37,427 nucleotides of DNA from a virus. This document shows, one piece after another, positions 6,003 through 24,517 of this stretch. The notes under the pieces are model-generated. The model was not told where the DNA came from, made no database searches, and was given only the letters and a program-made list of their open reading frames with translations. Position numbers and translations under genes: made by a program. Numbering within the stretch: position 1 is the first letter of the stretch; each line of letters starts with the position of its first letter. The stretch covers positions 1 to 37,427 of IMG/VR virus record IMGVR_UViG_3300028800_000201. One strand, 5' to 3'.

Positions 6003-6677
6003 TTATTGACCCTTTACCGTCACAGAAGAATTACTCAAATAGAAGCTCAACCCTACGACTGAACCATCCGCGGGAGCTGAAACCACGTGAGCTTCGAAAC
6101 AATTTAGAATGATGATTCCGCCGCCGTTTACTGGGCTATTTTGCAAAGAGAGCGTTGTATTTGGATCGCCCATAACTTCAAGGTGATCAACGGCACTTCC
6201 TGCGGCAGCTACAACTTCAACTGCGGCACTTCCGCCGATTGTTCCAGTTGCGATCGCTATAAAAGTTACGCCAACCGCTGGAGTGACTCCGACCGGAACG
6301 CCTGCAGCAACCCATTGAGCAAGAGTTGCGGTTCCCAATGAAACGATTGTGTATGCGGTATGAGCGGTTGTGGACGTGAGCGGTGTTCCGCTTACGGGAG
6401 AAACGCGCCCGTCAAATCCGCCAAGATAGCGGTTATAGTTATCTTGGAGTTGAACCATGATAACGCCAGCGGCGGGATTTGGATTTAGAAAACCGCCGTT
6501 ACCTTTTCCAGGTGTGGCGCTTGTGTGCATGAATACGTTTAGGATTCCGGCACCTTTTAAAGAGCGCAGTCCGAGACCATTGCCGTTTGCGGCGTCTACG
6601 ACGAAATTACAAGAGAGGAGAACTGGATAAGCTTCAAATTGATAAAGCTTATTCGACATGAAATTGCGGTTTGCCAT
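6003..6677 (-). CDS. Head-associated structural protein (decoration or minor head protein)
   Basis: The protein has 224 aa, ATG 6677, with AAGGA seven bases upstream. It contains NGNGLGLRSLKG, VFMHTSATPG and VQLQDNYNRYLGGF, a pattern I recognise in proteins encoded right after the capsid gene in many podovirus-like phages. An Ala/Val/Gly-rich insert (VGVTPAVGVTFIAIATG) follows, and the C-terminus is beta-rich. It is the first gene after a terminator and a copy of the 16-bp motif, so it opens the tail-side late operon. A capsid decoration role is inference. Confidence 0.6.
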   Translation of the reverse strand: MANRNFMSNKLYQFEAYPVLLSCNFVVDAANGNGLGLRSLKGAGILNVFMHTSATPGKGNGGFLNPNPAAGVIMVQLQDNYNRYLGGFDGRVSPVSGTPLTSTTAHTAYTIVSLGTATLAQWVAAGVPVGVTPAVGVTFIAIATGTIGGSAAVEVVAAAGSAVDHLEVMGDPNTTLSLQNSPVNGGGIIILNCFEAHVVSAPADGSVVGLSFYLSNSSVTVKGQ

Positions 6678-6773
6678 TTGTTTGTCCTTGAGAGTGCCTG
6701 TTAGTTTTACCCAGCAACGAAGACAGGCGCTTCGGCGAGTCGTGTCCCAAGGACAATCCTAGGGCTACAACAT

Positions 6774-6789
6774 TGTGTAATTGAGACAA
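6774..6789 (-). promoter_or_regulatory. 16-bp conserved motif, copy A (candidate late promoter)
   Basis: The minus strand reads TTGTCTCAATTACACA, identical in all four strict copies in the genome. Here it starts in the T-run of the capsid terminator and lies about 100 bp before the start at 6677. Downstream AATGTTG and TAGCC are shared with copy B. No sigma70 -10 box is correctly spaced. Confidence 0.75.
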
Positions 6790-6822
6790 AAACGCCCCGG
6801 AACCATAGGTCCACGGGGCGTT
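6786..6822 (-). terminator. Rho-independent terminator after the capsid gene
   Basis: On the minus strand AACGCCCCG (6822-6814) pairs with CGGGGCGTT (6799-6791) around a 14-base loop, followed by TTTTTG. It lies 23 bp after the capsid stop and should end or attenuate capsid transcription. The next transcription motif follows at once. Confidence 0.85.
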
Positions 6823-6844
6823 AATGCGCTTAGGAGAACTTCTT

Positions 6845-8161
6845 TTAGGCTGAGAGAATGATTCTCAAGTTCCAGCCGGGAGCGTTACAAACGTAGTTGT
6901 AGTAGCAGCCGACACGGACTTCGAGAGCGTCAGAATTTCCGACGCGTAATCCTTCGAGTCCCTCGAGTCCATAAGTAAGGATATGAGGCGCCTTACCGAG
7001 AGACCGAAGTTTCCAAGTATCCATTGTCAAACAAAGACCGACGTTGGATCCTGTGACGTAGTTAGCGTTGCGATCTGCGAAAACAGTTACATAGCCATAG
7101 GCGCTATGGAATCTGATTCCTTCAAATGCCACATCTGCTTCGTCATGGTGGATATCGACATATTGTACTTTTGCACCGAGCGCGTTTTCCAAAGCCGTGT
7201 AGCTCTGGAAAGAAAGTACCATCGTGTCCGGATCAGCACCTTCGCGGTTTGCAAATCCAAGTCCGTTCGTAACGCCTTCTTCTATACTGTAAGAGCTGGC
7301 ATCAAAACGGAGGCCTGCCAATCTGGTTGGATCAGTCGATCTATTCACGCCCCAGAAGCTATCTGTCAAACCTGGATCTGTTGCAGGAAGCCATGCACTG
7401 AATCCCGAAGCTGCCAAATAAGATCCCGAAGAACCGAGTGGGCCTGAGCCTGTTCCGCCAGTTGTTGGAATATCACCTTGGACAGTGATGAAATCCGTGA
7501 TTGCCCAGTTGGTTTGAGGAGCACCGCTTAATACTGTGAATTGGATAACGCCAGTAGAACGGTTAACCGAACTTACTGTTCCCAAGTCTGTTCCAGCATT
7601 GATTGGAGCGCCGCCATCTGTAGCGGAAGCTTGAATTGTCATTCCAACTTCGAAATTGACCACGTTCTGTGGGTTTGCGAGGGTGAATTGATAAATCGAG
7701 CCTGAAGGATTCGTGATTGCAGAACCAATAACACCACGGGTTGCAGTTCCCGAACCGAACTGTTCAAACGCCATGTTGTTAGACAAGTTCTTGATGCCGC
7801 CATCCATTTCACGCTTCATTTCGTCAACGAATGCGCCAGCGTTCGATTTAGTTTGCTCGATAAGCAAATTTGTAATCGTGACTAACTGATAATCTTGGAT
7901 GATATAGACAAAGAACGAATCGTATTGATTCGGAGTCTGGTTTCCCTGTGCATTTGCAAAGGTGTGTGACCGACCCATAGGATCAGCAAACTGGATGGGC
8001 ACAGGAATATATTTTCCCGCTAGCCCTTCGGAACTCTCATTTTTTGGAATTAAAGCGAAACTCGGATTTTTTGCATAGACCAAATCCTTCATATAGTCGG
8101 AATTGTCTACGTACAGTTCTTTCAAAACTGCAATCGAGCTCGCACTTGTTGCGAAACTCAT
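6845..8161 (-). CDS. Major capsid protein
   Basis: The protein has 438 aa, ATG 8161, with an AAGGGG ribosome site. It follows the scaffold directly (3-bp gap) and is followed by a strong terminator. The N-terminal part has a long helix and YIPVPIQFADPMGRS. Residues about 90-135 hold the EQTKSNAGAFVDEMKREMDG spine-like helix. Residues about 145-240 are a Gly/Thr/Ser-rich beta insertion, and the rest (FRDRNANYV-like and WKLRSLG segments) fits a HK97-fold capsid protein of podoviruses. Gene order portal-scaffold-capsid supports the call more than any single motif. Confidence 0.85.
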   Translation of the reverse strand: MSFATSASSIAVLKELYVDNSDYMKDLVYAKNPSFALIPKNESSEGLAGKYIPVPIQFADPMGRSHTFANAQGNQTPNQYDSFFVYIIQDYQLVTITNLLIEQTKSNAGAFVDEMKREMDGGIKNLSNNMAFEQFGSGTATRGVIGSAITNPSGSIYQFTLANPQNVVNFEVGMTIQASATDGGAPINAGTDLGTVSSVNRSTGVIQFTVLSGAPQTNWAITDFITVQGDIPTTGGTGSGPLGSSGSYLAASGFSAWLPATDPGLTDSFWGVNRSTDPTRLAGLRFDASSYSIEEGVTNGLGFANREGADPDTMVLSFQSYTALENALGAKVQYVDIHHDEADVAFEGIRFHSAYGYVTVFADRNANYVTGSNVGLCLTMDTWKLRSLGKAPHILTYGLEGLEGLRVGNSDALEVRVGCYYNYVCNAPGWNLRIILSA

Positions 8162-8164
8162 AAA

Positions 8165-9259
8165 TTACCCCTTTTCGGCCATTCGTTTTTCGACAGCCAT
8201 AATTGCGCGTTCCCGCGCAGTAAGGGCCCGTTGTACGGACCCCTGGTTTGTTAAAGTTGTTTGTTTTGGCTGTGGCTGCAGGGGACTTGCTTCTTCCGGA
8301 ATCTCTGCCGGAGGTGCCAGGCGCGACTTGATTTTGGCAAGTTTTCCAAGGGACTCGAATCTTTTGAACTCGCGGTCCACAAGTTTTTCTTCAACAAGAC
8401 GGGCGGCTTCTTCTACAGGAAGAACTTCGCCTTCTGCGTTGAAGACTTGCTTAATCAGTTCCACTACGTGCTCGGTTTGACCCGTGGCCTTAATGGTTTC
8501 AAACGCTGGATCGGAGTCGACCAAAAGCTTAGCGTCTCGTCTAATCTGATTAACTGCGGCGTCATATTGTTGAGAATCCCGTTTAGTGAATTGCTCATCA
8601 ACGCCAGCAAGTCTTGCTTCCAGAGATGCAATCTTGTCCAAAAGGGCTTGATTGGGATCTGGGGCAACTTGGTTTAACTGTAATTCAACCAAGCGATCGT
8701 AAGTGACGCCTGCTTCGGTAAGGGCTTTTAATGGGTCAGAAGTTAGAAGTGATTTTGGGACGTACTCAGCCTCACGTTGCTTCAAGGCGTCTTCGCGCAT
8801 TTTGAGCTCTTGCCGGGCTCTCCGTATCGCCTTCTCTTGTTTTGCGAGAGCGACGAATTGAGGACTCAGGGGTTGGCTGGTTGCTTCAACCTGTGCCGGA
8901 GGCTCAACATTATTGTTTGATTGAGACAATTCTGGTGCGACGGCTCCGGGTGCTAAGCCTGAAGGCTGCGGGGGAAATTCAGTTGGCGCTTCTTGCCGCG
9001 CGGAGGTTCTGCCTTGCGGTTGGGGAGTTGGAAATTTTTGAAGAGCGGCATATTCTTCAGCGCGCGCAGAGCTCCCAGCGCGTCTGGGAGCCTGTGGTGT
9101 TGGAGGCGGAGCTTTTGACAGTTTGTCTTTAAGAGCTGCGACTCTTGCCGAACTTGTTGTGGGTTTTCCATAATTCACTTGTGGCCGCGCCGGGGGCGTT
9201 GCGACAGGTTGTGGATTTGATGGATTACTCTTAGCTTTGGGCGTGATGTTTAGCGCCAT
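8165..9259 (-). CDS. Capsid scaffolding protein
   Basis: The protein has 364 aa, ATG 9259, with AAGGAAG ahead. The first 130 residues are a Pro/Gln/Ala-rich disordered region. Residues about 132-167 form a charged coiled coil (ALAKQEKAIRRARQELK). The C-terminal third is helical and ends in a basic helix (ALTARERAIMAVEKRMAEKG), as in many scaffolds that bind capsid protein through a basic C-terminal helix. It sits between portal and capsid. No protease gene is visible, so release rather than cleavage of the scaffold is likely. Confidence 0.8.
   Translation of the reverse strand: MALNITPKAKSNPSNPQPVATPPARPQVNYGKPTTSSARVAALKDKLSKAPPPTPQAPRRAGSSARAEEYAALQKFPTPQPQGRTSARQEAPTEFPPQPSGLAPGAVAPELSQSNNNVEPPAQVEATSQPLSPQFVALAKQEKAIRRARQELKMREDALKQREAEYVPKSLLTSDPLKALTEAGVTYDRLVELQLNQVAPDPNQALLDKIASLEARLAGVDEQFTKRDSQQYDAAVNQIRRDAKLLVDSDPAFETIKATGQTEHVVELIKQVFNAEGEVLPVEEAARLVEEKLVDREFKRFESLGKLAKIKSRLAPPAEIPEEASPLQPQPKQTTLTNQGSVQRALTARERAIMAVEKRMAEKG
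8915..8930 (-). promoter_or_regulatory. Degenerate copy of the 16-bp motif inside the scaffold gene
   Basis: The minus strand reads TTGTCTCAATCAAACA, 14 of 16 bases equal to the motif, followed by AATAATGTTGAG, close to the flank of copy B. It lies in the scaffold coding sequence about 750 bp before the capsid start and could boost capsid expression. It may also be chance, since it encodes Leu-Ser-Gln in frame. Confidence 0.3.
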
Positions 9260-11239: not shown

Positions 11240-11470
11240 TTATTGCTCTTGTGGAACCGTTGGAACTGGACCGCCTGAGGAGTAGTACATCTTTTCCTCG
11301 TCGGTCATTTCGTCCCAGGTTTTTTCTTGTGGCGCGCTAGAAGATTCCTGCGAAGACCTGGACTCGGGCACCATTTCGGAAAGTTCTAATTTGAGATCTG
11401 AACTCTCGTATTTCAAAACGCCTTGGGCGCGCAAAAGCTTTAAAAGCTCTTTCAATTCTTTTGTGGTCAT
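11240..11470 (-). CDS. Small acidic protein before the portal gene
   Basis: The protein has 76 aa, ATG 11470, overlapping the previous stop by one base (TAATG), with AAAGGCGG upstream. It has an N-terminal amphipathic helix (TKELKELLKLLRAQGVLKY), a Ser/Gln linker, and an acidic tail (WDEMTDEEKMYYSSGG). I do not recognise a family with a known function. The position three bases before the portal gene suggests an assembly or packaging accessory. Confidence 0.6.
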   Translation of the reverse strand: MTTKELKELLKLLRAQGVLKYESSDLKLELSEMVPESRSSQESSSAPQEKTWDEMTDEEKMYYSSGGPVPTVPQEQ

Positions 11471-12132
11471 TATGACCGCCTTTTCATTTTTCTTTCTTTA
11501 AGGATTTGGCCAACGAGGGATTGATCGTCCAGGGAGCTGGACTCTACGTCGTGCTCTTCATCTTCGCGGGTATGGACGGGTTCCATATTGATGCGCGTTT
11601 CAAAATCATCGCTTACGGGCTCTGTGACATATCCGCCTTCGGCAAGCTTTCGGCGTTTTCTATCGTCAAGAATTTGCTGCAGAATACTGGGCTCTGCGTG
11701 ATCGTCTGCTTGTGCCTCTTCTAATTGTGTTTGGCGGACATCCTTTTGGATGTATCCGCCCTGAGCATATTTGGCTTTATCGGATTGCGGCATTCCAACT
11801 TTTCTGGCTTCTACTTCTCCGCCCGCATAGTAAACGTCTTCATCTTCTTCATCGCGTTCCATTTCCATTGTGTCTCTGGCATCGTCTTCATCGATGTGGC
11901 CGCCGTGGGCAAGCTTTGCGACTTCTGATTGGTTGTCGCCAGGGGAATATTCGATTTTCTCATCGCGCATCATGTCCGAAGGCATCGACTCTTCATGCTC
12001 AGGATGCATTTCCTCATTAACTTCTCCGCCGTGGGCCATACATTTTCCGCCCTTAGCCATGCAATCGGGGCATCCGACTTTTCCTTTTTTCTTCATGTTG
12101 TAGGCCATAGCCAAGTCCGGTCGGTTTTTCAT
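11470..12132 (-). CDS. Gly-Gly repeat acidic protein in the packaging/head module
   Basis: The protein has 220 aa, ATG 12132 (ATGA overlap with the previous gene). It is very rich in Asp/Glu, His and Met. It carries five spaced repeats of the form (A/E/Q)-x0-1-GG-x-(V/I): AHGGEV, AHGGHI, YAGGEV, AQGGYI and AEGGYV. The N-terminus has CPDCMAKGGKC, a possible metal-binding pair. Proteins with 'YAxGGxV' repeats are frequent upstream of portal genes in uncultured phages, but no function is known to me. A flexible virion or packaging component is a guess. Confidence 0.6.
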   Translation of the reverse strand: MKNRPDLAMAYNMKKKGKVGCPDCMAKGGKCMAHGGEVNEEMHPEHEESMPSDMMRDEKIEYSPGDNQSEVAKLAHGGHIDEDDARDTMEMERDEEDEDVYYAGGEVEARKVGMPQSDKAKYAQGGYIQKDVRQTQLEEAQADDHAEPSILQQILDDRKRRKLAEGGYVTEPVSDDFETRINMEPVHTREDEEHDVESSSLDDQSLVGQILKERKMKRRS

Positions 12133-12362
12133 TCGTCACCCTCTTCGTCTTCTTCGTTAGGGCCCTCTTCATGGGGCATGGAATCTAAAAGGTAGAAAGC
12201 GCTCTCAAGCGCCAGGGCGACAGAGCGTGCGTCCTTAGCTTCGACGGCTCGCATAAGTTCGGCTGAAGCCTCAAGAAGGCCCGGACTGACTGCTTCCGCA
12301 AATCTGTGATCGACTGCGACTCCGACTTGCGTTTTTTTCTTCAAAAATGGAAGAACTGGCAA
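12129..12362 (-). CDS. Small protein opening the portal operon (TTG start likely)
   Basis: No ATG is available. TTG 12362 is preceded by GAGG five bases away and gives 77 aa. A second TTG at 12386 would touch the 16-bp motif and has no ribosome site. The protein has a helical core (GLLEASAELMRAVEAKDARS, then VALALESAFYLLDSM) and an acidic tail (EEGPNEEDEEGDE). It ends in an ATGA overlap with the next gene. The function is unknown. Confidence 0.6.
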   Translation of the reverse strand: MPVLPFLKKKTQVGVAVDHRFAEAVSPGLLEASAELMRAVEAKDARSVALALESAFYLLDSMPHEEGPNEEDEEGDE

Positions 12363-12389
12363 AAAAACCTCGATATATTGGTTCAATAC

Positions 12390-12405
12390 TGTGTAATTGA
12401 GACAA
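12390..12405 (-). promoter_or_regulatory. 16-bp conserved motif, copy C (candidate late promoter)
   Basis: The minus strand reads TTGTCTCAATTACACA, then GTATTG, at the head of the portal operon. If it is a promoter, transcription would begin near 12380 and leave a short leader with GAGG before the TTG start at 12362. Confidence 0.75.
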
Positions 12406-12415
12406 AACGGTGCGG

Positions 12416-12564: not shown

Positions 12565-12864
12565 ATGAAACCTCTTTACTACATCTTAGATGAAAACCAC
12601 AACGTCGTTGTAGAGCCAGACGTTCACAAATGGGCGAAACAGTTTGAGGATATAGGGGCCCGAATAGTAAAAAAGACTAATCTCGCAGATTGCCAAGTGA
12701 GCACAGTGTTTTTAGCCATCGATCATTCCTTTCTTGATGATCAGCAACCAGTTCTTTTTGAGACAATGGTGTTTGGCGGCGAGTATGACGGCGAACAATT
12801 CAGATATCATACTTGGGATGAAGCGGTTGAAGGTCATAAAAAAACCGTGGAGAAATGTAAATGA
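12565..12864 (+). CDS. Conserved phage protein of unknown function, first micro-operon gene
   Basis: The protein has 99 aa from ATG 12565, where GGGGGAGAAT provides the ribosome site; the longer upstream frame lacks one. The sequence MKPLYYILDENHNVVVEPDV, then KWAKQF, VSTVFLAIDHSF and LFETMVFGGEYDGE, is a pattern I recognise from many unrelated phages, always small and without a known role. Soluble, one domain. It starts a chain of genes joined by 4-bp overlaps. Confidence 0.75.
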   Translation: MKPLYYILDENHNVVVEPDVHKWAKQFEDIGARIVKKTNLADCQVSTVFLAIDHSFLDDQQPVLFETMVFGGEYDGEQFRYHTWDEAVEGHKKTVEKCK

Positions 12865-13040
12865 CTCCACAAGAAGAACTACAGCGCATCGCGGAGAAGC
12901 AGGCCGATATGATTTTCAAACTTGAGCAAGACTTAAAAACCGCAGACAAGATTATCGAGTATATCGGCGGCTGCATGGTTTTTCTTGGCGGCGCTCTTAT
13001 TTGGTTTGTCGTAGCCCAGATTCATGCGGGGAAGATGTGA
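12861..13040 (+). CDS. Small membrane protein with N-terminal coil
   Basis: The protein has 59 aa, ATG 12861 in an ATGA overlap. Residues 1-36 are a charged helix (PQEELQRIAEKQADMIFKLE). Residues about 38-54 are hydrophobic (IGGCMVFLGGALIWFVV), one membrane helix. It resembles small phage membrane proteins with a cytoplasmic coil and could be an accessory holin or exclusion factor. The function is not readable. Confidence 0.65.
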   Translation: MTPQEELQRIAEKQADMIFKLEQDLKTADKIIEYIGGCMVFLGGALIWFVVAQIHAGKM

Positions 13041-13366
13041 AGTTCAAAATCGGCGATAAAGTTGTGGTGTATATGAGTTCAGAAGGAATTCCGGTAAGAC
13101 TTTTAGGAGTTGTAACAGATATACAACGATTACCATCACGAGCCCCATTAGATACAGAATATTTATTGGTAGACTACGGTCGTGGAAGTGTAGCATTTCA
13201 CCCCAAACAATGCCGTCTCTTGAAGAAGAAAGAGCGGAAGAGGGTTTGGATGGACCCAGCATCATATAAATCGTTTTATAACGGACTGGATTCATGGCAG
13301 GTTTGGAATAGGAATACCAAGCAAGAGAAAGATTGGATTGAATTCATCGAGGTGAAGAAGAAATGA
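13037..13366 (+). CDS. SH3-like small basic protein
   Basis: The protein has 109 aa from GTG 13037 (GTGA overlap, GGGGAAG upstream). The N-terminus, FKIGDKVVVYMSSEGIPVRL, followed by GVVTDIQRLPS and YLLVDYGRGSVAFHPKQCRL, looks like a small SH3/KOW-type barrel. The C-terminal half is Lys/Trp-rich (DSWQVWNRNTKQEKDWIEF). It could bind nucleic acid; that is inference. Confidence 0.6.
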   Translation: MKFKIGDKVVVYMSSEGIPVRLLGVVTDIQRLPSRAPLDTEYLLVDYGRGSVAFHPKQCRLLKKKERKRVWMDPASYKSFYNGLDSWQVWNRNTKQEKDWIEFIEVKKK

Positions 13367-13470
13367 ACTATACGTATGTCTGCCAAGATTGTTGGAACAA
13401 AGGGATAAAAGCTAAACATATTAGCCAAGGAGTTTGTGAAGCCTGTGGCTCTCCAAACAAAAAGAAATGA
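13363..13470 (+). CDS. 35-aa zinc-ribbon micro-protein
   Basis: ATG 13363 (ATGA overlap). The sequence has CQDC, 15 residues, then CEAC, a C-x2-C / C-x2-C ribbon. It contains no other domain. Placement in an unbroken chain of overlapping genes and the paired Cys support real coding. Confidence 0.65.
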   Translation: MNYTYVCQDCWNKGIKAKHISQGVCEACGSPNKKK

Positions 13471-13682
13471 AATGGCTTAATAAGAAAAATAAAGAGGAGC
13501 TGGTTGCTAGACAGAATTGGGAAATATCAATGGAGTTAATAAAAACCAAAACCGAATCTGAAATGTGGAAAGAACGCGGAAACAGGTGGCAAATTTCTTT
13601 TGAAGAGTTAAGACAAGAAAACCAGCGCTTAAGAGAATTTATTCTTAAATTATCCGAAACTAATTTAAAAAGGATGCCATGA
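13467..13682 (+). CDS. Small coiled-coil protein
   Basis: The protein has 71 aa, ATG 13467 (ATGA overlap). Almost the whole length is a charged helix (WEISMELIKTKTESEMWKER, then ISFEELRQENQRLREFILKL) with heptad-like spacing. It is probably an oligomeric coil. The function is unknown. Confidence 0.6.
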   Translation: MKWLNKKNKEELVARQNWEISMELIKTKTESEMWKERGNRWQISFEELRQENQRLREFILKLSETNLKRMP

Positions 13683-13927
13683 GACGATTCCGATTCAAGC
13701 CAGAGGATTTTGATGTTTACTGCACCGAAATAGGAGACAGGGATAATAGCCAATGCATAGAGGCTGCCAATAAAGCCAACGAACTCTTAGAAGCGCATGA
13801 GAAGACGTTGCCGAGGGTGTATGGAATTCCAGAACCCGCAGAAGGTTGGAATGGGTACAATGTTTGCACAGATACCCACACCGCATTGTTATACAACGTT
13901 GAACAGATTGGGGAGGAGATAAAGTGA
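13679..13927 (+). CDS. Small unknown protein
   Basis: The protein has 82 aa, ATG 13679 (ATGA overlap). It contains NKANELLEAHEKTLPRVYG, then GWNGYNVCTDTHTALLYNVE. The N-terminus MRRFRFKPEDF resembles small proteins of other phages, but I cannot name a function. Three Cys are unpaired. Confidence 0.55.
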   Translation: MRRFRFKPEDFDVYCTEIGDRDNSQCIEAANKANELLEAHEKTLPRVYGIPEPAEGWNGYNVCTDTHTALLYNVEQIGEEIK

Positions 13928-14010
13928 AAAAAGCCAAGTGTTACATTTGTGGAGCAGAGTCAATTGGAAATTTATACTGCAAAACTTGTGGGGCCATTTT
14001 ACCCAAATGA
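13924..14010 (+). CDS. 28-aa zinc-ribbon micro-protein
   Basis: GTG 13924 (GTGA overlap). The sequence is MKKAKCYICGAESIGNLYCK followed by TCGAILPK: two C-x2-C knuckles 11 residues apart, and nothing else. It is the first half of a gene pair that is repeated in tandem downstream. Confidence 0.6.
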   Translation: MKKAKCYICGAESIGNLYCKTCGAILPK

Positions 14011-14258
14011 AATCCCCACTACAAATTGCAAAAGAACTTCAAGAATTGCTTATTTTTTCGGATGGCCGGTTTGGCACTAGATATGAAAATCAAAATCCAG
14101 CAAACACAAGATTACATGATTTTTTAACGAGAACAATACTTAAAATCCTCGCCGAAGCCGTCGTGAAGCTGACGGAGGAGAATGAAGAGCTTAAAAAAGT
14201 CGTAGACCAACGGCCGTGGGATGAAAAGTGGAATGTGCAAAGCATTGGTGAAGAATGA
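14007..14258 (+). CDS. Small helical protein, paralogue of the 14353 gene
   Basis: The protein has 83 aa, ATG 14007 (ATGA overlap). It starts MKSPLQIAKELQELL and ends with AEAVVKLTEENEELKKVVDQ and a WDEK motif. The latter stretch is shared almost exactly with the next-but-one gene. It is mainly helical and soluble. Function unknown. Confidence 0.6.
   Translation: MKSPLQIAKELQELLIFSDGRFGTRYENQNPANTRLHDFLTRTILKILAEAVVKLTEENEELKKVVDQRPWDEKWNVQSIGEE
14148..14228 (+). repeat. 81-bp direct repeat, copy 1
   Basis: This copy is 79/81 identical to 14473-14553. The only changes are t/c inside a Leu/Pro codon and c/t inside an Arg/Trp codon. It encodes the shared AEAVVKLTEEN...WDEK segment. Confidence 0.9.
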
Positions 14259-14356
14259 TTAGAATGAAATGTCCAGGCTGCCAAGAAATAGTTTTTATTA
14301 TCTATAAACCATTTGGTTTTTGTTTTGGGTGTGAAAGCACGAGAATTAAACAATGA
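14255..14356 (+). CDS. 33-aa zinc-ribbon micro-protein
   Basis: ATG 14255 (ATGA overlap). MIRMKCPGCQEIVFI, then CFGCEST: C-x2-C, 14 residues, C-x2-C. The tail is basic. It is the zinc partner in the second copy of the duplicated gene pair. Confidence 0.6.
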   Translation: MIRMKCPGCQEIVFIIYKPFGFCFGCESTRIKQ

Positions 14357-14772
14357 AATCCGCACTCGAAATTGCGAAAGAAGTTTTGGACGCAAGAAAG
14401 TCTCGGGCACTTGATACCTTTCCTGAATCCGGGAACTACAATGACTGGTATCCGTTCTCTTGTGTTTTTGACCTCGCCGAAGCCGTCGTGAAGCTGACGG
14501 AGGAGAATGAAGAGCCTAAAAAAGTCGTAGACCAATGGCCGTGGGATGAAAAGGACGGCGGGTGGTTCATCATAAAGAAAAAAGGTGTCCCAGCAGCGGC
14601 AGAAGCATTTTTATTGGAATTTAAACAACAATCCCAAGCCCTGAAAGAAGCTATGGGAATTGTGAGAATGGCGGCATCTACTCAAGCAGATCCGAAGCAC
14701 GATAGACCGATTTATCCACATCTAATCGAATGCGCACAAGAATGGCTCGAGAAATACGGAACAAAGAAATGA
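14353..14772 (+). CDS. Helical protein, longer paralogue of the 14007 gene
   Basis: The protein has 139 aa, ATG 14353 (ATGA overlap). It starts MKSALEIAKEVLDARKS, similar to the 14007 product, and has the shared AEAVVKLTEEN block. It then has a unique region (GGWFIIKKKGVPAAAEAFLL) and ends HLIECAQEWLEKYGTKK. The ordering shows a duplicated gene pair followed by divergence or fusion of the second copy. Function unknown. Confidence 0.65.
   Translation: MKSALEIAKEVLDARKSRALDTFPESGNYNDWYPFSCVFDLAEAVVKLTEENEEPKKVVDQWPWDEKDGGWFIIKKKGVPAAAEAFLLEFKQQSQALKEAMGIVRMAASTQADPKHDRPIYPHLIECAQEWLEKYGTKK
14473..14553 (+). repeat. 81-bp direct repeat, copy 2
   Basis: Second copy of the 81-bp segment at 14148-14228, with two substitutions. 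The near identity indicates a recent duplication or gene conversion inside the micro-gene block. Confidence 0.9.
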
Positions 14773-14864
14773 CCTACGCAAAAGTATGCGCGATTTGCAA
14801 TAAAACCTATGTAAAGGAAACGGGTAAACCTTACCTAAGAATTTGTGAGAAATGTAAGAAATGA
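14769..14864 (+). CDS. 31-aa zinc-ribbon micro-protein
   Basis: ATG 14769 (ATGA overlap). The sequence carries CAIC, 15 residues, then CEKC, with Lys-rich flanks. It is one of at least five ribbon proteins of under 70 residues in this operon. Confidence 0.6.
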   Translation: MTYAKVCAICNKTYVKETGKPYLRICEKCKK

Positions 14865-14953
14865 AAGACCACTTCCTCCAAGTCACCTGCATCATAGGAA
14901 TCATTGGCTGGGGTGTATTTCTATTCTGGCTATTAGGCGGAGGATACTCGTGA
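14861..14953 (+). CDS. 30-aa single-pass membrane peptide
   Basis: ATG 14861 (ATGA overlap). After MKDHF, residues 6-26 (LQVTCIIGIIGWGVFLFWLL) form one membrane helix. The C-terminus is GGGYS. It is tiny, with no soluble domain; it may modulate a membrane protein. Confidence 0.55.
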   Translation: MKDHFLQVTCIIGIIGWGVFLFWLLGGGYS

Positions 14954-15144
14954 GCGAAAGACCCACCCATTTTAAATGTGATATGTGTAATACTCTTCAC
15001 GAAAAGAATTGGGATGCCGAAGATGCTATGCGTGAAGAAGCTAGAAAGAATTTCGGTGAAGATTTCTTTGAAAGAGATGATCAAGCCAGTGTTTGCGACG
15101 ATTGTTATAACCAATTAAAAATAGAACACCCAGAACTTTTATGA
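14950..15144 (+). CDS. 64-aa Cys-pair protein with acidic spacer
   Basis: GTG 14950 (GTGA overlap). CDMC and CDDC lie 36 residues apart, separated by a charged helix (DAEDAMREEARKNFGEDFFE). This is a split zinc ribbon. I recognise the style 'CDxC...EEARxNFG...CDDCY' from other phage proteins without known function. Confidence 0.65.
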   Translation: MSERPTHFKCDMCNTLHEKNWDAEDAMREEARKNFGEDFFERDDQASVCDDCYNQLKIEHPELL

Positions 15145-15254
15145 AACACATTTGGATTAGATGGAAGGCGGGATACAAGGCGTGTAAGAATTGTCTTATT
15201 GTAAAAAACGCTTATCCTAAAATAACCAAAACATGTCCGGGGAAGCCGAAATGA
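15141..15254 (+). CDS. 37-aa basic Cys peptide
   Basis: ATG 15141 (ATGA overlap). It has CKNC and a single later Cys (KTCPGKPK), and is very basic. It may be a degenerate zinc ribbon or bind nucleic acid. It overlaps the next ATG. Confidence 0.5.
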   Translation: MKHIWIRWKAGYKACKNCLIVKNAYPKITKTCPGKPK

Positions 15255-15553
15255 AGCTAGAAGATTGGTTAGATACGTTACATATTGAACTACTGATTAA
15301 GCGTTATCCCGCTCAAGATAATCGGTATAGTGCTTGGTTTGGAGTCTTCAATGGAGAATTTTCATGGGAAACCGGGGAATTTAAACAACATGTTGGTGAC
15401 CCGATGCTTCGAGGCAAATATGGCAATGGAAAAACTCCTTCAGAAGCGGTCCAGAATTTCTTAAAAGAAGTTGGAGGAATGATCTTAATTTTAAAACCTT
15501 ATGGGGAAGATCGCAGACAACATATAGTGCCGAAGAATCTGGAATATCCATGA
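15251..15553 (+). CDS. Unknown 100-aa protein
   Basis: ATG 15251 (ATGA overlap), taken instead of an upstream alternative inside the previous gene. It contains YSAWFGVFNGEFSWETGEF and GKTPSEAVQNFLKEVGG. The second segment resembles the short 'G.T..EAV..FL' helix found in many small antitoxin-like or HicB-like folds, but no partner toxin is visible, so I make no functional call. Confidence 0.6.
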   Translation: MKLEDWLDTLHIELLIKRYPAQDNRYSAWFGVFNGEFSWETGEFKQHVGDPMLRGKYGNGKTPSEAVQNFLKEVGGMILILKPYGEDRRQHIVPKNLEYP

Positions 15554-15750
15554 CCGCCATCACGTGGTTCTTCCAGCTCTTCAGGGATGGCCATTGCCGC
15601 ATACAGACAATCCCTTTGGGCTATGAGGTTTTCGCGGACGACAGAGTCATGCACTACCAGGGTGATTCAGTTGAAGAAGCCGTGCTACAATTCTTAGGCT
15701 GGTATTTGAAAGATTTAAAAGAACAGAATTTAATTTCGACCCGAGGCTGA
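15550..15750 (+). CDS. Unknown 66-aa protein
   Basis: ATG 15550 (ATGA overlap). MTAITWFFQLFRDGHCRIQT, then a C-terminal helix (SVEEAVLQFLGWYLKDLKEQ) similar in style to the previous protein's 'EAV..FL' helix, hinting at distant relatedness of the two neighbours. It ends the first run of overlapping genes. Confidence 0.6.
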   Translation: MTAITWFFQLFRDGHCRIQTIPLGYEVFADDRVMHYQGDSVEEAVLQFLGWYLKDLKEQNLISTRG

Positions 15751-15766
15751 CAGCACGGGATTGATA

Positions 15767-15804
15767 GCCGCCGGGCGATTAATGTGAAGAGTCGACTCGG
15801 CGGC
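15767..15804 (+). promoter_or_regulatory. Intergenic stem-loop and palindrome
   Basis: GCCGCCG (15767-15773) pairs with CGGCGGC (15798-15804), and the loop contains the 10-bp palindrome GAGTCGACTC (15789-15798). GACTTTT follows. It sits in the only gap of the operon, before a strong GGAGG site, so it may be a partial terminator or mRNA-processing point. Confidence 0.45.
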
Positions 15805-15820
15805 GACTTTTGGAGGATTC

Positions 15821-16225
15821 ATGGAAAAAGAAGCAAAGATAGCGATAAGCTACATCTCAGTTGTTTTCATGTTGTTGTGTGGATTAATCTCGCTTTGCAT
15901 GTGGGGATGCCCGAAGTATCAAGTGTATAGCTCTAGACAAGAAGGAATGGCGCAACTTGCTCATGCCTCGTTTTCGCGAGAGGTTGCGGTAGCAGAAGCG
16001 AAAGCAAAGATGGAGGCGGCAGAACTTCTAGCTCAAGCCGATGTAAGTCGCGCTAAGGGAGCCGCTCAAGCCAACAAAATAATCGGCGATAGCTTAAAAG
16101 GTAACGAGGCATATCTCAGATATCTTTGGATTCAAAACCTTGAAAACTCCAAAGAGCATCAAGTTATCTACGTTCCAACTGAAGCAGGCCTTCCCATCCT
16201 AGAAGCTTCGAGGCTTAAGAAATGA
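15821..16225 (+). CDS. Membrane-anchored SPFH/prohibitin-like tail protein
   Basis: The protein has 134 aa, ATG 15821, with TGGAGGA upstream. A membrane helix occupies residues about 8-29 (AISYISVVFMLLCGLISLCM). It is followed by an Ala/Lys/Glu helix (AVAEAKAKMEAAELLAQADV, then SRAKGAAQANKIIGD) and YLWIQNLENSKEHQVIYVPT. The helix and the 'W...L....VIYVP' end match the C-terminal part of band-7/prohibitin (HflC-type) proteins, without the band-7 domain itself. Known phage versions are of unknown role; interference with host FtsH-HflKC is a possibility only. Confidence 0.65.
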   Translation: MEKEAKIAISYISVVFMLLCGLISLCMWGCPKYQVYSSRQEGMAQLAHASFSREVAVAEAKAKMEAAELLAQADVSRAKGAAQANKIIGDSLKGNEAYLRYLWIQNLENSKEHQVIYVPTEAGLPILEASRLKK

Positions 16226-16410
16226 AAACACTAATATTAGTATTTTTAGTATTTGTGGGATGTGACTGCAATAAGAAGAGCTCTTTTATCCTTCAATCAG
16301 GCGAAAAGGTTTCATGCCACTATTACTATCACAACTGTGGTATGGAACTACTCCATTGCGACAATGGCATGCAGTACAGTTGCGTTATTAACGCGAAGAG
16401 GATTCAATGA
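16222..16410 (+). CDS. Small Cys-rich lipoprotein
   Basis: The protein has 62 aa, ATG 16222 (ATGA overlap). MKTLILVFLVFVGCDC is a short lipoprotein signal with Cys14 as the likely lipid site. The mature part has Cys pairs (SCHYYYHNCGMELLHCDNG) that could form disulphides in the periplasm. It probably sits in the outer or inner membrane leaflet. A superinfection-exclusion role is possible but unproven. Confidence 0.6.
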   Translation: MKTLILVFLVFVGCDCNKKSSFILQSGEKVSCHYYYHNCGMELLHCDNGMQYSCVINAKRIQ

Positions 16411-16613
16411 GCGTTACCTGTGGACCCCACGGCTGGCGTCACGCTTATCAACAATGTCCTTCATGCGCACCTTTAATGGGGCAACAGACCCATCCTGGCT
16501 GGCAGAACCAACAAATTCCACAGAGACAAGACCAATCCAATTACGAATACCAGATTCTCTGCAAGCTTGATGAGATTTTAAGTCTACTTCGACAGATTAT
16601 TAAAAAGCCATGA
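16407..16613 (+). CDS. Small Cys/His protein with coil
   Basis: The protein has 68 aa, ATG 16407 (ATGA overlap). It begins CGPHGWRHAYQQCPSC, a Cys/His knuckle seen in other small phage proteins. The middle is Gln-rich and the C-terminus is a helix (LDEILSLLRQIIKK). Function unknown. Confidence 0.6.
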   Translation: MSVTCGPHGWRHAYQQCPSCAPLMGQQTHPGWQNQQIPQRQDQSNYEYQILCKLDEILSLLRQIIKKP

Positions 16614-16975
16614 CCGAAGCCGAAGCAATCGATGTTGTTTCGAAATTAAAATATAAGCCCGGCTCGAGATTCAATTGTTGGCGAGCGGATGGCATGGACG
16701 CCATCCAAATCACTATATCTTTACAAGTTGAAGATGCTTGTTATTGGAAAGAAAAGGAAAAGCCAGTAATCCCGATTCTCACACAAGCCTTTCTTGTATA
16801 TGAAGCTTTAAATGGAATGACCGAAAGAGATTTTTTAGATTGGATAAAATATCAAACACATCTTATGGAACGGCATGAATCAACTGAGTGGTTGCGGTTT
16901 GATGGAAAATTGTTAGAAGACCCACATCCCGGTATCGCTAGGTACATGGGCTCCGTTAAGCTCGACCTCGACTAA
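16610..16975 (+). CDS. Unknown 121-aa protein ending the micro-gene operon
   Basis: ATG 16610 (ATGA overlap). It contains GSRFNCWRADGMDAIQITIS, then IPILTQAFLVYEALNGMTER and DFLDWIKYQTHLMERHE. The pattern of an N-terminal sheet and C-terminal helices is familiar from small phage proteins of unknown role. Its stop codon overlaps that of the convergent minus gene by 4 bp (16972-16975), so there is no room for a terminator between the two operons. Confidence 0.65.
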   Translation: MTEAEAIDVVSKLKYKPGSRFNCWRADGMDAIQITISLQVEDACYWKEKEKPVIPILTQAFLVYEALNGMTERDFLDWIKYQTHLMERHESTEWLRFDGKLLEDPHPGIARYMGSVKLDLD

Positions 16976-17502
16976 TCCCTCTTAAACGCGCAGCCGTTCT
17001 CATGGCCGTTCAGGATTGAGACGCAATGGCAATCGTCGGAGCCTGGAATTCTGCCCCGTTTGATTCCATACAAAGTGGAATCTGCCGATGCCGCAGCTTT
17101 ATCAAGACACTCCTGACACCAGCCTGGCGCTTCATCGCAGGAGAAAGGTTTCTTGCAATCATGGCAAGCGAAGGGGTGTGCATGAAACGCATTCGGACGC
17201 TTAGCGGGTTGCGCGAAATCCCTACTTTGTAAACACTTCCTGCATTCCGCTCTGTCTGCGGAGACAGGCCGGAAATCATGTATGCAATCGACCATCACGG
17301 CTCTGATAAAACTCTCCCGAATCGCGGACCAAGGGCGCATGTACTTTTTTACCCGAAAAATCTGAGCGCCTTTATTCGTAATGGTATGCGTTTTCTTTGA
17401 TTTCGGATAGTAGATTTCTAAATCCTTCTCATCAATCCTAGGATTGGTGAAGGCTTCATTTGGAATGTTTGCCCTCTTCCAAGCGTCAGTAAAAGTACAC
17501 AC
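16972..17502 (-). CDS. Cys-rich zinc-binding protein downstream of terminase
   Basis: The protein has 176 aa, GTG 17502, which overlaps the terminase TAG by one base, with GGGGAGG upstream. The N-terminal half holds FRVKKYMRPWSAIRESFIRA. The C-terminal half has CRKC, CHDC, CDEAPGWCQEC and CHC, enough for two zinc sites. Translational coupling to terminase suggests a packaging accessory or nuclease. The HNH motif is not clearly present. Function unknown. Confidence 0.65.
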   Translation of the reverse strand: MCTFTDAWKRANIPNEAFTNPRIDEKDLEIYYPKSKKTHTITNKGAQIFRVKKYMRPWSAIRESFIRAVMVDCIHDFRPVSADRAECRKCLQSRDFAQPAKRPNAFHAHPFACHDCKKPFSCDEAPGWCQECLDKAAASADSTLYGIKRGRIPGSDDCHCVSILNGHENGCAFKRD

Positions 17503-18884
17503 TAGTCGTCCTCCCCATTTTCTATCTTTGAAATTCTTTCAAACTCGCCGTCGAACATTTCATCTTCTTGTTGTTTAAAGTATTCCGAGGTTCCCGGCTT
17601 TGGCGAGTCCGGCTTCTTTTCAAACGCGTAAGCATACGCTTCCTTCCACGCGTACACCACGGCGTCACAAATATCAGAATGAAATCTGTCAGAGATAATC
17701 TTTTTGTCAGGCGTTGATTTATCACGGTCCCATTCTACCTTATTGCAATCTTGAGAGAGCTTTGAAAAGGGTTTCGCTTTAAACTTACCATTCCTTAGCG
17801 TGTCGTTAAAGAGCTCTATATACTCAAGCTTTCTACTCTTATCGGCAGGAATCATGGGAATCTTATAACGCTTTGATATCTCTTCAGTAATCTTTTTGCC
17901 TAGCCCTGCCGTGTCGATTACTATTCGAGAGAAGTCGTATTTCTTTTGAAGCTTGTCTATCTGTTTTCTAAGAGAGGTTATGTCTTGGTGAGGCGTTATC
18001 ATTTCTTCGACGAGATAGGTCGTGTCACCGAACTCCTGATAGGCGAGAACCGCCAAGGCGTCCGCGTCGTCAAAACCAAGGTCTATCCCAAGGATAAAAG
18101 TCCACTCAGCTTTTGGCAGCTCCGTGTAATCGTTGATGGCGCTATCGTATTGGAATACGAGACTTGTTCTATCGATGACCCATTTCCCAAACCACTCTCT
18201 TTGGATTGATGGATCCTTTACGGTGACGCCTCTACGCTTTAATTCGCGATCTAGCATTCCAGGCGGGATGTAAGGATTTTCCTTCCACGACCAAAAGTGG
18301 TGAGACCACTCTGGATTCTTTGTTAGGTCATAGAAATAACCAACGGGAACGGGGCCGGGAGTTCCAATCACGCAAAGAGTTCCCGCATGGTCCATGAGAG
18401 ATGGCCCAATCACATCGTCGATTAGGTCTTTGATGTAGGCCGGAAAACTTTGGGTTTCGTCAAGGTATGCCTTCTTCACGGGAAGTCCGCGCATATCTTC
18501 AATGGAGGAGCGATCTTTAGCGCCGAGCAGATAAATCACAGAGCCATTCAAATAGGTTATTGAAAGGTCCGACTCGTTGGGGATTCCCCGAAGATGGAAT
18601 TTCTTGTTCAGCCGTTTAAATTCTGGCCAGACAAGGCGCTTGGCATTCTTTCGAGAGAGAGTAATGTAGAGGCAAACTGAATTAGGATTATCAACGGCAG
18701 TGAAAGTCAGGTCTGCAACGCAAGAAGTAGATTTGCCTGCCCTGCGGGTAGTGACCGCAATCTTGAACGGAGCAGGATCTTGCACAAAAGCCAACTGCTC
18801 CCTAAAGAGATATTCCTTAAGAGCAAATGGAACAGAGACGCCGTGGCGTTTTTGTAATTCTCGAAAGAGGGATGTTTTGTCCAC
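17502..18884 (-). CDS. terL: Terminase large subunit
   Basis: The protein has 460 aa from GTG 18884 (AAGGA eight bases upstream). The packaging ATPase domain has Walker A TTRRAGKST (45-53), Walker B KKAYLDETQ (D142/E143) and the coupling motif VIGTPGP. The RNase H-like nuclease domain shows GIDLGFDD (D268), VIDTAGLG (D324) and DRFHSDICDA (D404/D407). It cuts concatemeric DNA and drives it through the portal. Small overlapping genes precede it, one of which may be the small subunit. Its separation from the portal by a plus-strand block is unusual. Confidence 0.95.
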   Translation of the reverse strand: MDKTSLFRELQKRHGVSVPFALKEYLFREQLAFVQDPAPFKIAVTTRRAGKSTSCVADLTFTAVDNPNSVCLYITLSRKNAKRLVWPEFKRLNKKFHLRGIPNESDLSITYLNGSVIYLLGAKDRSSIEDMRGLPVKKAYLDETQSFPAYIKDLIDDVIGPSLMDHAGTLCVIGTPGPVPVGYFYDLTKNPEWSHHFWSWKENPYIPPGMLDRELKRRGVTVKDPSIQREWFGKWVIDRTSLVFQYDSAINDYTELPKAEWTFILGIDLGFDDADALAVLAYQEFGDTTYLVEEMITPHQDITSLRKQIDKLQKKYDFSRIVIDTAGLGKKITEEISKRYKIPMIPADKSRKLEYIELFNDTLRNGKFKAKPFSKLSQDCNKVEWDRDKSTPDKKIISDRFHSDICDAVVYAWKEAYAYAFEKKPDSPKPGTSEYFKQQEDEMFDGEFERISKIENGEDD

Positions 18885-20651: not shown

Positions 20652-21096
20652 TGTCGCTTCCTTCAGTCGCTTCTTTTTTGTGTAATTGAGACAATCTGAG
20701 CCCAAATTGCGATTGCAGCCGATTGATAGCGTATGCTGATTGCCTCTGCGTCAAGTCTAGCTCTTTGGCTATTTGTCTTGTTGAAAGCCCGTCACAATGG
20801 AGCTTCCATATTTCTTTATGCTTCTTTGATTTAAACTTTCCCGTGTGAAGAACTTGTCCGGCAGCTCTGTAATAGTCTTGTTGGGATTCTTTCCATATTA
20901 AGGAGCTATATCCAGCGCTTCCTGAATACCGCGGCTCTAGTCCGTTTATCCGAGCGGAAATAGTTCCAGACCAAGCTTTTAAAAGCCCAGTCTTACGATC
21001 TTCAATGTCTTCAAATCCGGATTCTGCAAGTTTTTTGTCCCAATACTCAAGTTGCTGCGCAAGGTCCGTTTTCTTTTTCTTTCTTCTGTTCTTCAT
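20461..21096 (-). CDS. Helix-turn-helix DNA-binding protein with anomalous C-terminus
   Basis: The frame gives 211 aa from ATG 21096. Residues 1-130 match a family frequent in phages: YYRAAGQVLHTGKFKSKKHK, then IWKLHCDGLSTRQIAKELDL and QRQSAYAINRLQSQF, a clear helix-turn-helix at about 103-128. Relatives usually end soon after this. Here the frame runs 63 codons out of phase through the next gene, with low-complexity Ser/Pro/Lys content. An A6 run after codon 138 would, with one extra A, stop at TGA 20665-20663 and give about 143 aa. It may regulate late genes and could act at the 16-bp motif, which lies in its own 3' end. Confidence 0.65.
   Translation of the reverse strand: MKNRRKKKKTDLAQQLEYWDKKLAESGFEDIEDRKTGLLKAWSGTISARINGLEPRYSGSAGYSSLIWKESQQDYYRAAGQVLHTGKFKSKKHKEIWKLHCDGLSTRQIAKELDLTQRQSAYAINRLQSQFGLRLSQLHKKEATEGSDNDTHSNKGCRARRSPIPVLNLPKKLLVFQNPRHDSKEAHLDGAPTQETGKSPRNSKSKSRLPF
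20679..20694 (-). promoter_or_regulatory. 16-bp conserved motif, copy D (candidate late promoter)
   Basis: The minus strand reads TTGTCTCAATTACACA, inside the 3' part of the helix-turn-helix gene and 28 bp before the ATG at 20651. It is followed by AAAAAAG instead of the AATGTTG seen in copies A and B. It would start the operon ending with terminase. Confidence 0.75.
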
Positions 21097-22011: not shown

Positions 22012-22189
22012 CTTAGGGGCGGCTTCTAAACCATTCGGCGCTGTCCCAGCCTGGATACCAGATAGCGTGAGTCCGAAGGATCGTGGAGCGGCCGATCACA
22101 CGCGACCTCGGTAAGAAAGTCGGGCCTGGGCATAAACTAGACAAATCGTTGAATTGTCCTGTTTTCTAAAATCTGCCGATAAGCCTTAC
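22012..22189. promoter_or_regulatory. Divergent control region with several small hairpins
   Basis: Between two divergent operons. It includes CTGG-ATA-CCAG, TCC-GAA-GGA, and GATCG...CGATC nested within GCGTG...CACGC. These may be operators, a structured RNA or the recombination (attP-like) site of the adjacent recombinase. No tRNA fits. Confidence 0.4.
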
Positions 22190-22762
22190 ATGAAAGGCTG
22201 TAGACCCTTAACTGACGCAGAGATACAAGGATGCTTGGCGGTTCTTTCTAAGGGCTCTCATCCCGAACGCGATACCGCTCTTTTTCATTTGGGTTTACGG
22301 ACGGGCTTCAGGATATCTGAAATCCTCTCTTTAACGGTTGGCGACGTTTATCAAAATGTCCAGATCGTCGATGAAGTCTATGTTGCCCGCAGGAATATGA
22401 AAAAGAAACGAGAGGGGCGAAGAATCAAACTTCATGAAGAGGCCCGCTCTGCAATAAGCGCTTTGGTGAGTTCTTTAGAAGTTTTTTATCCGGCTAGTCC
22501 TCTTTTTCAGAGTCAGAAAGGCGGAGCTCTCAATAGAAAAAGCGCCTGGTTGATGCTTCGAAAGGCATACGCCGCCGCAGGCTTAAATGGAAAGCTCGGG
22601 ACTCATTCCATGAGAAAGACCTTCGCCAAACGAATCTATGAGAAACTTGGAAAGGATCTTCTTAAAACCCAAAAGGCTCTCGATCACGCAAGCGTCACTT
22701 CAACTGCAGCCTACCTTTCCTTTAACCAAGATGACATTGATGACGCAATCCTAAAGTCATGA
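22190..22762 (+). CDS. Minimal tyrosine recombinase (catalytic domain only)
   Basis: The protein has 190 aa from ATG 22190; a TTG at 22154 would add 12 residues. All catalytic parts are visible: Arg41 in TGFRISEIL, Lys region 71-74, His139-x-x-Arg142 in GTHSMRKTF, His166 in LDHASV and nucleophile Tyr175 in AAYLSF. The N-terminal core-binding and arm-binding domains of phage integrases are missing; FimB/FimE have similar size. It joins DNA strands at a specific site. It may integrate the genome, resolve dimers or invert a segment. It overlaps the next lysis-side gene by ATGA. Confidence 0.85.
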   Translation: MKGCRPLTDAEIQGCLAVLSKGSHPERDTALFHLGLRTGFRISEILSLTVGDVYQNVQIVDEVYVARRNMKKKREGRRIKLHEEARSAISALVSSLEVFYPASPLFQSQKGGALNRKSAWLMLRKAYAAAGLNGKLGTHSMRKTFAKRIYEKLGKDLLKTQKALDHASVTSTAAYLSFNQDDIDDAILKS

Positions 22763-22971
22763 AAAGAAACATAGAAATCCCGCAATGGTTTATTGGACTT
22801 CTCACCGCGTGGGCCATATGGGTCTCGAAGGGCATGGTGACCTTACAAAATGAGGTTGCCGTGCTAAAATACAAGAACTTCAACACTGTGACCCAAAAAG
22901 AACCAGATAAAAAATACAATTTAGATGCAGACATGAATTTTCTTCAATTTCTTGAAAGGAAAAAACAATGA
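22759..22971 (+). CDS. Membrane-anchored protein, spanin- or holin-like candidate
   Basis: The protein has 70 aa, ATG 22759 (ATGA overlap with the recombinase stop). One hydrophobic segment (WFIGLLTAWAIWV, residues 10-22) is followed by a soluble charged tail (LQNEVAVLKYKNFNTVTQKE). One N-terminal membrane helix with a short coil fits either an inner-membrane spanin or a class III-like holin. Its position next to the lysozyme cassette supports a lysis role. Confidence 0.5.
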   Translation: MKRNIEIPQWFIGLLTAWAIWVSKGMVTLQNEVAVLKYKNFNTVTQKEPDKKYNLDADMNFLQFLERKKQ

Positions 22972-23162
22972 ACCTCTCAGCCCTATTAAGTGTTTTACTT
23001 CCAGCTCTTAAACCGCTTCTCGCCGATTTCGTCGAAGGGGTTGTAAAGCCACAACTTCAAAAATATGAATCCCAAATCGGATCCGCTGAACTTCAATCCC
23101 TTCTTGTTGGCCTAACATCTTCAGCCGAAGCTTGGGTTGAGGCCGAGATCGCAAAACTCTAA
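22968..23162 (+). CDS. Small hydrophobic/amphipathic lysis-cassette protein
   Basis: The protein has 64 aa, ATG 22968 (ATGA overlap). The N-terminus is a Leu/Ala/Pro-rich amphipathic stretch (LSALLSVLLPALKPLLADFV), followed by a helical region. It could be a pore-forming (holin) candidate, though no classic pair of membrane helices is visible. It is adjacent to the lysozyme gene. Confidence 0.5.
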   Translation: MNLSALLSVLLPALKPLLADFVEGVVKPQLQKYESQIGSAELQSLLVGLTSSAEAWVEAEIAKL

Positions 23163-23410
23163 TGGGACTTCTTTCGGCAGCTCTTTCTTCTTTGTCCCCA
23201 GTCGATATGGCAAAGATCATCGTTGAATATGGGCCTTGCTTGGAGGCCCTTATTCAATTCATCGAACTTCAAGAGGATGAAAAGAAAAGAGCTCTTGCCA
23301 TGACCGATATAACCAGGGGTCTTCAATATGCGAAACAGACCGGCGACACCTCACAATTGGAAGCTTCTATTCGTGCCCACTGCGGTGCTAATGGCTGCCG
23401 TCTACCTTAA
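23162..23410 (+). CDS. Unknown 82-aa lysis-region protein
   Basis: ATG 23162, overlapping the TAA of the previous gene by one base. It has two short hydrophobic helices (LLSAALSSLSPVDMAKIIVE; CLEALIQFIELQEDEKK) and a C-terminal Cys pair (AHCGANGC). The last 83 bp overlap the start of the downstream lipoprotein in another frame, an arrangement typical of Rz/Rz1 pairs, but this protein has no obvious anchor. Confidence 0.5.
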   Translation: MGLLSAALSSLSPVDMAKIIVEYGPCLEALIQFIELQEDEKKRALAMTDITRGLQYAKQTGDTSQLEASIRAHCGANGCRLP

Positions 23411-23609
23411 TAGTTGTGCGACTAAAGGAGACTTAGCTTTAAGCAAACCTGCATGCTCTTGGGAACTGTGGCAGGGAAATCCTCATCTGAATGCAATCAC
23501 AAGACTCCAATCTATAACTCCGATAACTTGTTCCGATCCAGAATTCGCAAATTATACTTGTCTCACTTCTAGCGATCTTAAAAATCTTCTGACCTGTGGT
23601 GGTAAATGA
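23328..23609 (+). CDS. Lipoprotein, o-spanin (Rz1-like) candidate
   Basis: The protein has 93 aa, ATG 23328 with AGGGG nine bases upstream; it starts inside the previous gene. The signal MRNRPATPHNWKLLFVPTAV, then LMAAVYLNSC, gives a lipid-attachment Cys (about residue 30). The mature part is Cys-rich (ACSWELW, ITCSDPEF, YTCLTSS, LLTCGGK), which may form disulphides. The embedded start, the lipobox and the lysozyme directly downstream suggest an outer-membrane spanin. Confidence 0.6.
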   Translation: MRNRPATPHNWKLLFVPTAVLMAAVYLNSCATKGDLALSKPACSWELWQGNPHLNAITRLQSITPITCSDPEFANYTCLTSSDLKNLLTCGGK

Positions 23610-24289: not shown

Positions 24290-24336
24290 AGTCCCATCAT
24301 ACAACTAATCTTCATAATTTGTCTAGAACTTTTATC

Positions 24337-24365: not shown

Positions 24366-24383
24366 TAAGACATTGGAGGACAG

Positions 24384-24509: not shown

Positions 24510-24517
24510 GTGTGAAT

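Follow-up and report, generated by a model that had tools for sequence, protein, structure and literature searches.

Small accessory genes with tight stop-start overlaps are known from several phages. The nin regions of lambda and P22 (ren and ninB-ninI; ninA-ninZ) contain small, mostly dispensable delayed-early genes joined by such overlaps, and the ea genes of P22 (eaA-eaI), which are likewise small, early and accessory, overlap by four bases. In phage morons and regions of genomic plasticity, cargo separates genes that are neighbours in related phages, and its content varies between phages (PMC4378225). Four-base overlaps favour termination-reinitiation (PMC6728339, PMC10666635). Herein, a block of 20 small genes (12565-16975, plus strand) was analyzed in a stretch of 37,427 nucleotides of viral DNA (IMG/VR record IMGVR_UViG_3300028800_000201, positions 1 to 37,427; the whole stretch is called the window). 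The block is located at the seam between the terminase and the portal-side genes, and it resembles both the nin regions and the ea genes. We consider it probable that a podovirus-like phage carries here a moron-like or nin-like cassette of accessory genes, with two adjoining sub-cassettes of 16 and 4 small non-structural genes.

Two chains of overlapping coding frames

The 20 frames lie on the same strand in two chains, one of 16 genes (12565-15750) and one of 4 genes (15821-16975), separated by 70 bp (15751-15820). The genes of the first chain have 28-139 codons and are joined by 15 four-base overlaps (12 ATGA and 3 GTGA). The second chain contributes 3 ATGA overlaps, giving 18 in the whole block. 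The -4 stop-start overlap expected of a termination-reinitiation operon is thus found at 18 of the 19 junctions. All 20 frames were verified as open and closed at their coordinates, and the block runs opposite to the structural genes of the phage. The chained array and its orientation had been described in the initial annotation, and both were confirmed.

Chains were counted as open reading frames (ORFs) of >=25 amino acids linked by NTGA. The longest chain in dinucleotide shuffles of the window had 3-5 members (n=100). Mycobacteriophage Marvin gave the longest chain, with 11 members, among 128 fetched loci (1.90 Mb, phage DNA for the most part), and the next had 8. Four-base overlaps are common in this phage generally, being present at 11/40 same-strand junctions outside the block. 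The block shows a clear excess over this level (18/19; Fisher p = 8e-7). It is the longest stop-start chain in this survey and offers a natural test of how far ribosomes are carried by translational coupling.

The initial annotation had named coding bias and conservation of the short frames as checks. The bias was measured with a six-frame test, in which a codon model was trained on the other non-structural genes of the phage. The annotated block frames summed to +233.7, and the other five frames gave -42.8 to -142.9. The annotated frame ranked first in 16/20 genes (binomial p = 9e-10). The low scorers were the short genes 4, 9, 12 and 18, of which gene 9 was the weakest and gene 12 ranked second among its frames. 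Conservation in relatives was not found, except for gene 17 and for distant relatives of genes 1 and 20. No block protein other than gene 17 was found in 64 fetched loci of relatives, 37 whole records and 27 capsid-protein relatives. Comparison of gene 17 with its homologues gave differences of 0.34, 0.24 and 0.67 at the three codon positions, a pattern of purifying selection. Because the coding bias is present despite the missing conservation, the short frames are judged to be real and lineage-specific, and the block as a whole is genuinely coding. The small number of homologues and the metagenomic origin of the contig might raise the suspicion of spurious frames or of an artefact of assembly. 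Either is extremely improbable given the chain length relative to shuffles, the six-frame result, the selection on gene 17, and the presence of the genome's own repeated motif at the seam.

The seam after the terminase in related phages

The seam is marked on one side by the terminase large subunit (17502-18884, minus strand; phrog_979, E 1.3e-12) and on the other by the first portal-side late gene (12129-12386, minus strand), whose homologues lie between terminase and portal in relatives. The block was initially described as splitting the usual terminase-portal neighbourhood. It does lie between these two genes, but they are not neighbours here, since two or three small conserved genes (11240-12386 in the window) always separate them in this lineage. 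The block adjoins these small portal-side genes on one side. On the other side, it adjoins the terminase together with a Cys-rich gene of 176 amino acids (16972-17502, minus strand), which directly follows the terminase and is convergent with gene 20. For this Cys-rich gene, no family match and no homologue in the fetched relatives were found; it is possibly cargo as well.

Relatives were collected by a portal search (61 loci) and a capsid search (27 loci), and their loci are numbered with the prefix L. The gene order is conserved as terminase, small gene (the 12129-12386 homologue), a gene of the 11470-12132 type, portal, scaffold and capsid. The interval from the terminase to the small gene is ~0 to 2.5 kb in 52 relatives and 5.1 kb in the window. 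The seam is empty in L130, whose capsid protein is 84% identical and which has a motif of its own at position 5641. Genes that are adjacent in a relative are therefore separated by an insertion here, as in morons, with intervals from ~0 to 5.1 kb.

The content also varies between relatives, as in morons. The cargo is an RtcB RNA ligase (1812-2993, minus strand) and a DUF7448 gene on the opposite strand in L036, endonuclease VII in L030, HNH in L041, and SSB in L049. In L042, a chain of ~10 other small genes is found in the late orientation. The close relatives L144 and L145 have a phosphoesterase there, as well as a papain-family lipoprotein that lies on the opposite strand, directly beside the motif. 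This lipoprotein (L144:4032-4880 and L145:3950-4798, both minus strand; Peptidase_C1, E 1e-47) is an unusual phage cargo. Gene 17 recurs in two relatives, away from the seam.

A repeated motif beside the seam

A late-promoter-like motif, TTTTGTCTCAATTACACA, separates the block from the portal-side late genes (12390-12407, minus strand). Four copies with <=2 mismatches are present in the window, all on the late strand (6774-6791, 12390-12407, 20679-20696 and 31636-31653). None of 100 shuffles contained as many. A further occurrence of the motif was noted at 8918-8929.

Similarly, several relatives have before the portal-side genes a repeated motif of their own, which recurs within the scaffold gene and downstream of the capsid gene. 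The relatives with a motif include L029, L031, L032, L033, L041, L042, L046, L051, L065 and L130. Each phage has its own version of the sequence, with a loosely common YCATT core, and the motif of L130 (5641, 11349) resembles that of the window. Motifs were enriched at the seam (10/37 against 9/421 random windows, p = 2e-7). The position of the motif is conserved while its sequence diverges, as if promoter and reader had changed together. No obvious candidate for such a reader was seen among the long ORFs of three relatives, and a motif search in viral contigs gave no matches. A late promoter is the straightforward, though provisional, reading of these repeats. On that reading, the seam would tolerate cargo placed upstream of the motif, because portal-capsid expression would stay uninterrupted.

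Origin and role of the block

The chain, the coding bias, the variable seam and the repeated motif are established, and they fit an accessory cassette. Two other explanations were weighed against the same data. The block could be the early or middle region of the phage, relocated to the terminase-portal seam and not acquired there. The block is indeed on the same strand as the early-type genes (22154-25718), and in codon usage it fits with the non-structural genes of this phage. Where the window has integrase, lysozyme and a YqaJ exonuclease, the early region of a syntenic relative contains a DNA-polymerase-like gene together with 8 chained small ORFs. However, the early region is still in its usual place, and the block genes, gene 17 excepted, are not found in the early regions of relatives. 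Relocation is thus considered unlikely.

The initial annotation proposed a dedicated takeover or accessory system, and it is the accessory part that stood: relatives have unrelated cargo or none at the seam. In a dedicated host-takeover system, the mini-proteins would act together, in a fixed ratio, from one coupled message. The near-perfect chain across 16 genes and the five or six zinc-ribbon-like mini-proteins set among larger proteins would suit this proposal, as would the enrichment of overlapping coupled genes for complex subunits in cells (PMC10666635). We nevertheless regard it as quite unlikely. Relatives hold no conserved unit and their contents are heterogeneous, independent ribosome-binding sites occur within the block, genes 8 and 10 point to a recent internal duplication, and the comparable lambda nin array is dispensable for plaque formation (PMC10695390). 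The stronger form, in which the chain of 16 genes forms a single translational unit and its set-ratio mini-proteins, with interleaved zinc ribbons, build a multi-part early takeover complex, is very unlikely. Apart from the chain itself, nothing supports a dedicated takeover machine.

Several observations weigh against the accessory cassette behind a late promoter. The G+C content of the block (41.4-43.0%) is below that of the adjacent portal-side late genes (47.6%), but it equals that of the terminase side (43.3%) and of other early-strand genes, so that composition does not show foreign origin. The search for a sigma-70-like promoter or a clear terminator of the block found neither. Consensus signals of both kinds were fewer here than in shuffles, and the only hairpin lies in the 70-bp gap. 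Some of the seam motifs, ten in all, resemble repeats due to coding or to chance (L017, L030). A single-subunit RNA polymerase that could read the motif was not found, in a search that had no positive control.

With these points included, an accessory cassette is still preferred. The genes of its sub-cassettes were probably acquired piecemeal and packed into near-unbroken stop-start overlaps. The seam between the terminase and the promoter-like motif would keep cargo of either orientation without stopping the expression of the capsid genes. The products, which include zinc-ribbon mini-proteins, small membrane proteins and a stomatin-like coiled-coil membrane protein, probably exert an early effect on the host, and each is probably dispensable by itself. 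Promoter function, timing, coupling and dispensability are the parts of this picture that we infer.

Translation of the block

Translation by re-initiation was suggested in the initial annotation. This is plausible, though it is not exclusive. The Shine-Dalgarno (SD)-like pairing at the block starts is stronger (mean -4.9) than at random block positions (mean -2.3; p = 1.6e-4), and it is not significantly less than that of the phage's other genes (p = 0.14). Good SD sites precede genes 1-4, 6, 7, 13, 15 and 17-19. At an assumed efficiency of 50% per junction, 15 successive steps leave ~3e-5 of the starting ribosomes, which makes pure reinitiation unlikely. Because about half of the starts have good ribosome-binding sites, the block is probably translated by coupling together with independent initiation. 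Ribosomes would enter at the strong sites of genes 1 and 17 and then spread via stop-start coupling, with re-entry at the internal sites of genes 2, 3, 4, 6, 7, 13, 15, 18 and 19. Coupling would matter most for genes 8-12, 14, 16 and 20.

Features of the block genes

All genes described here are on the plus strand. Family searches with all 20 block proteins gave a clear placement for genes 17 and 20 only, and the others stayed below the cut-offs. Gene 1 (12565-12864, 99 amino acids) has a strong SD (-8.4) and ranked first in the frame test. Its distant relatives are in large phages of Rhizobium and Pseudomonas and also in Mesorhizobium phages, with a tblastn E of 2e-10 for phiK7B1. A viral-contig scan with gene 1 gave two loci, neither with a comparable array; scans with genes 20 and 10 found no relatives.

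Paired CxxC motifs are present in genes 4, 7, 9, 11 and 13. Gene 4 (13363-13470, 35 amino acids) is zinc-ribbon-like with a weak, sub-threshold Pfam match to DZR_2 (E 3.5e-4). Gene 7 (13924-14010, 28 amino acids), gene 9 (14255-14356, 33 amino acids) and gene 11 (14769-14864, 31 amino acids) are also zinc-ribbon-like, and gene 7 follows a GTGA junction with the strongest SD in the block (-11.4). Gene 13 (14950-15144, 64 amino acids) likewise follows a GTGA junction, with an SD of -9.5. An anti-phage defence library was scanned with ten block proteins, and the sole match, a weak one, was gene 13 to PD-T7-4 (E 0.0075); it was taken as a zinc-ribbon coincidence. Gene 14 (15141-15254, 37 amino acids) is basic and has a single CxxC.

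Membrane helices are predicted in genes 2, 12 and 17. Gene 2 (12861-13040, 59 amino acids) follows an ATGA junction and has one helix by hydropathy, and gene 12 (14861-14953, 30 amino acids) also has one. Genes 3 (13037-13366, 109 amino acids, GTGA junction) and 6 (13679-13927, 82 amino acids, ATGA junction) both ranked first in the frame test. Between them, gene 5 (13467-13682, 71 amino acids, ATGA junction) is charged, probably helical and without an SD. Gene 8 (14007-14258, 83 amino acids) is a partial paralogue of gene 10 (14353-14772, 139 amino acids). Their common stretch of 82 nt is 98% identical, a sign of recent duplication or conversion within the chain.

Gene 15 (15251-15553, 100 amino acids) is followed by gene 16 (15550-15750, 66 amino acids), which closes the first chain. 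The 70-bp gap then holds the SD of gene 17 and a GC-rich hairpin (fold -23.8 kcal/mol, z -2.1), a possible terminator, attenuator or processing site. In the second chain, gene 18 (16222-16410, 62 amino acids) has a lipoprotein-like signal by eye and, like gene 19 (16407-16613, 68 amino acids), follows an ATGA junction. Gene 20 (16610-16975, 121 amino acids) belongs to the phrog_1540 family (E 4.4e-10), and a relative of it sits in the small-gene array of mycobacteriophage Marvin.

Gene 17 (15821-16225, 134 amino acids) combines a membrane helix at its N-terminus with a long coiled coil. It matches phrog_11227 'protease' (E 2.9e-50), whose phage members are annotated as protease, membrane protease subunit or stomatin-like. 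Its C-terminal helix resembles the prohibitin C-terminus by profile (E 0.005). An SPFH (band 7) domain was not recognised and there was no Pfam match. The structure model is a long helix (predicted confidence, pLDDT, 74) with no fold match in the PDB. The name 'protease' is thus unsupported for this membrane helix and coiled coil. The widespread phage family phrog_11227 resembles a membrane-anchored stomatin/prohibitin C-terminus that lacks the SPFH domain. Speculatively, its proteins could interfere with host HflKC/FtsH.

Other observations on the phage and its relatives

No direct DNA similarity of the phage to known phages was found. A host search with the portal profile gave one distant match, in a Polyangiaceae metagenome-assembled genome, which is insufficient to name the host. 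The first of the early-strand genes is a short tyrosine integrase (22154-22762, 202 amino acids), and the window has no counterpart at this position of the long polymerase-like gene of the relative L099.

In the close relative L143, the major capsid gene is interrupted at 6283-6451, 6746-6935, 7569-7752 and 7993-8200 by four frame-breaking insertions of 169-208 nt, three of them alike. Only the last is present in L132 (3686-3893) and L138 (845-1052), and none in L129; L144 was noted as a further case. By eye, the insertions contain words resembling a group I intron core (GAACGACTGACAAGG ... GATACAGTC), and a comparison with Rfam gave no match at threshold.

Comparison with known systems

By the same program, the longest ATGA-type chain is 7 in lambda (including P and ren) and 6 in P22, both shorter than that of the block. 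Unlike the block, the nin region is flanked by the replication genes and Q and is oriented like its neighbours. The two have no homologues in common; a NinF match to gene 4 (E 0.07) was below cut-off. The P22 ea genes have a shorter chain and a different location, and no homology was found. The SPO1 takeover module was rejected as an analogue, as its small genes are mostly spaced, with a longest chain of 2. The left-end array of Marvin is like the block in its 11-gene ATGA-type chain near the terminase, with the gene 20 relative (gp6). It differs in being upstream of the terminase on the same strand, with one related gene only. The Salmonella phages epsilon15 and SPN1S (Uetakevirus) each carry a single gene on the opposite strand between terminase and portal, in the same place and orientation as the block. 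In SPN1S this single gene, against the twenty of the block, is a gene 17 homologue. Morons carry one to six genes, compared with twenty here, where the block's own promoter and terminator were not identified.

The seam after the terminase, bounded by the promoter-like motif, is where new accessory genes should be sought in this uncultured phage group. Taken together, the block is best seen as a phage accessory cassette of a known kind and not as a new system, exceptional in the length of its chain and its inverted position.

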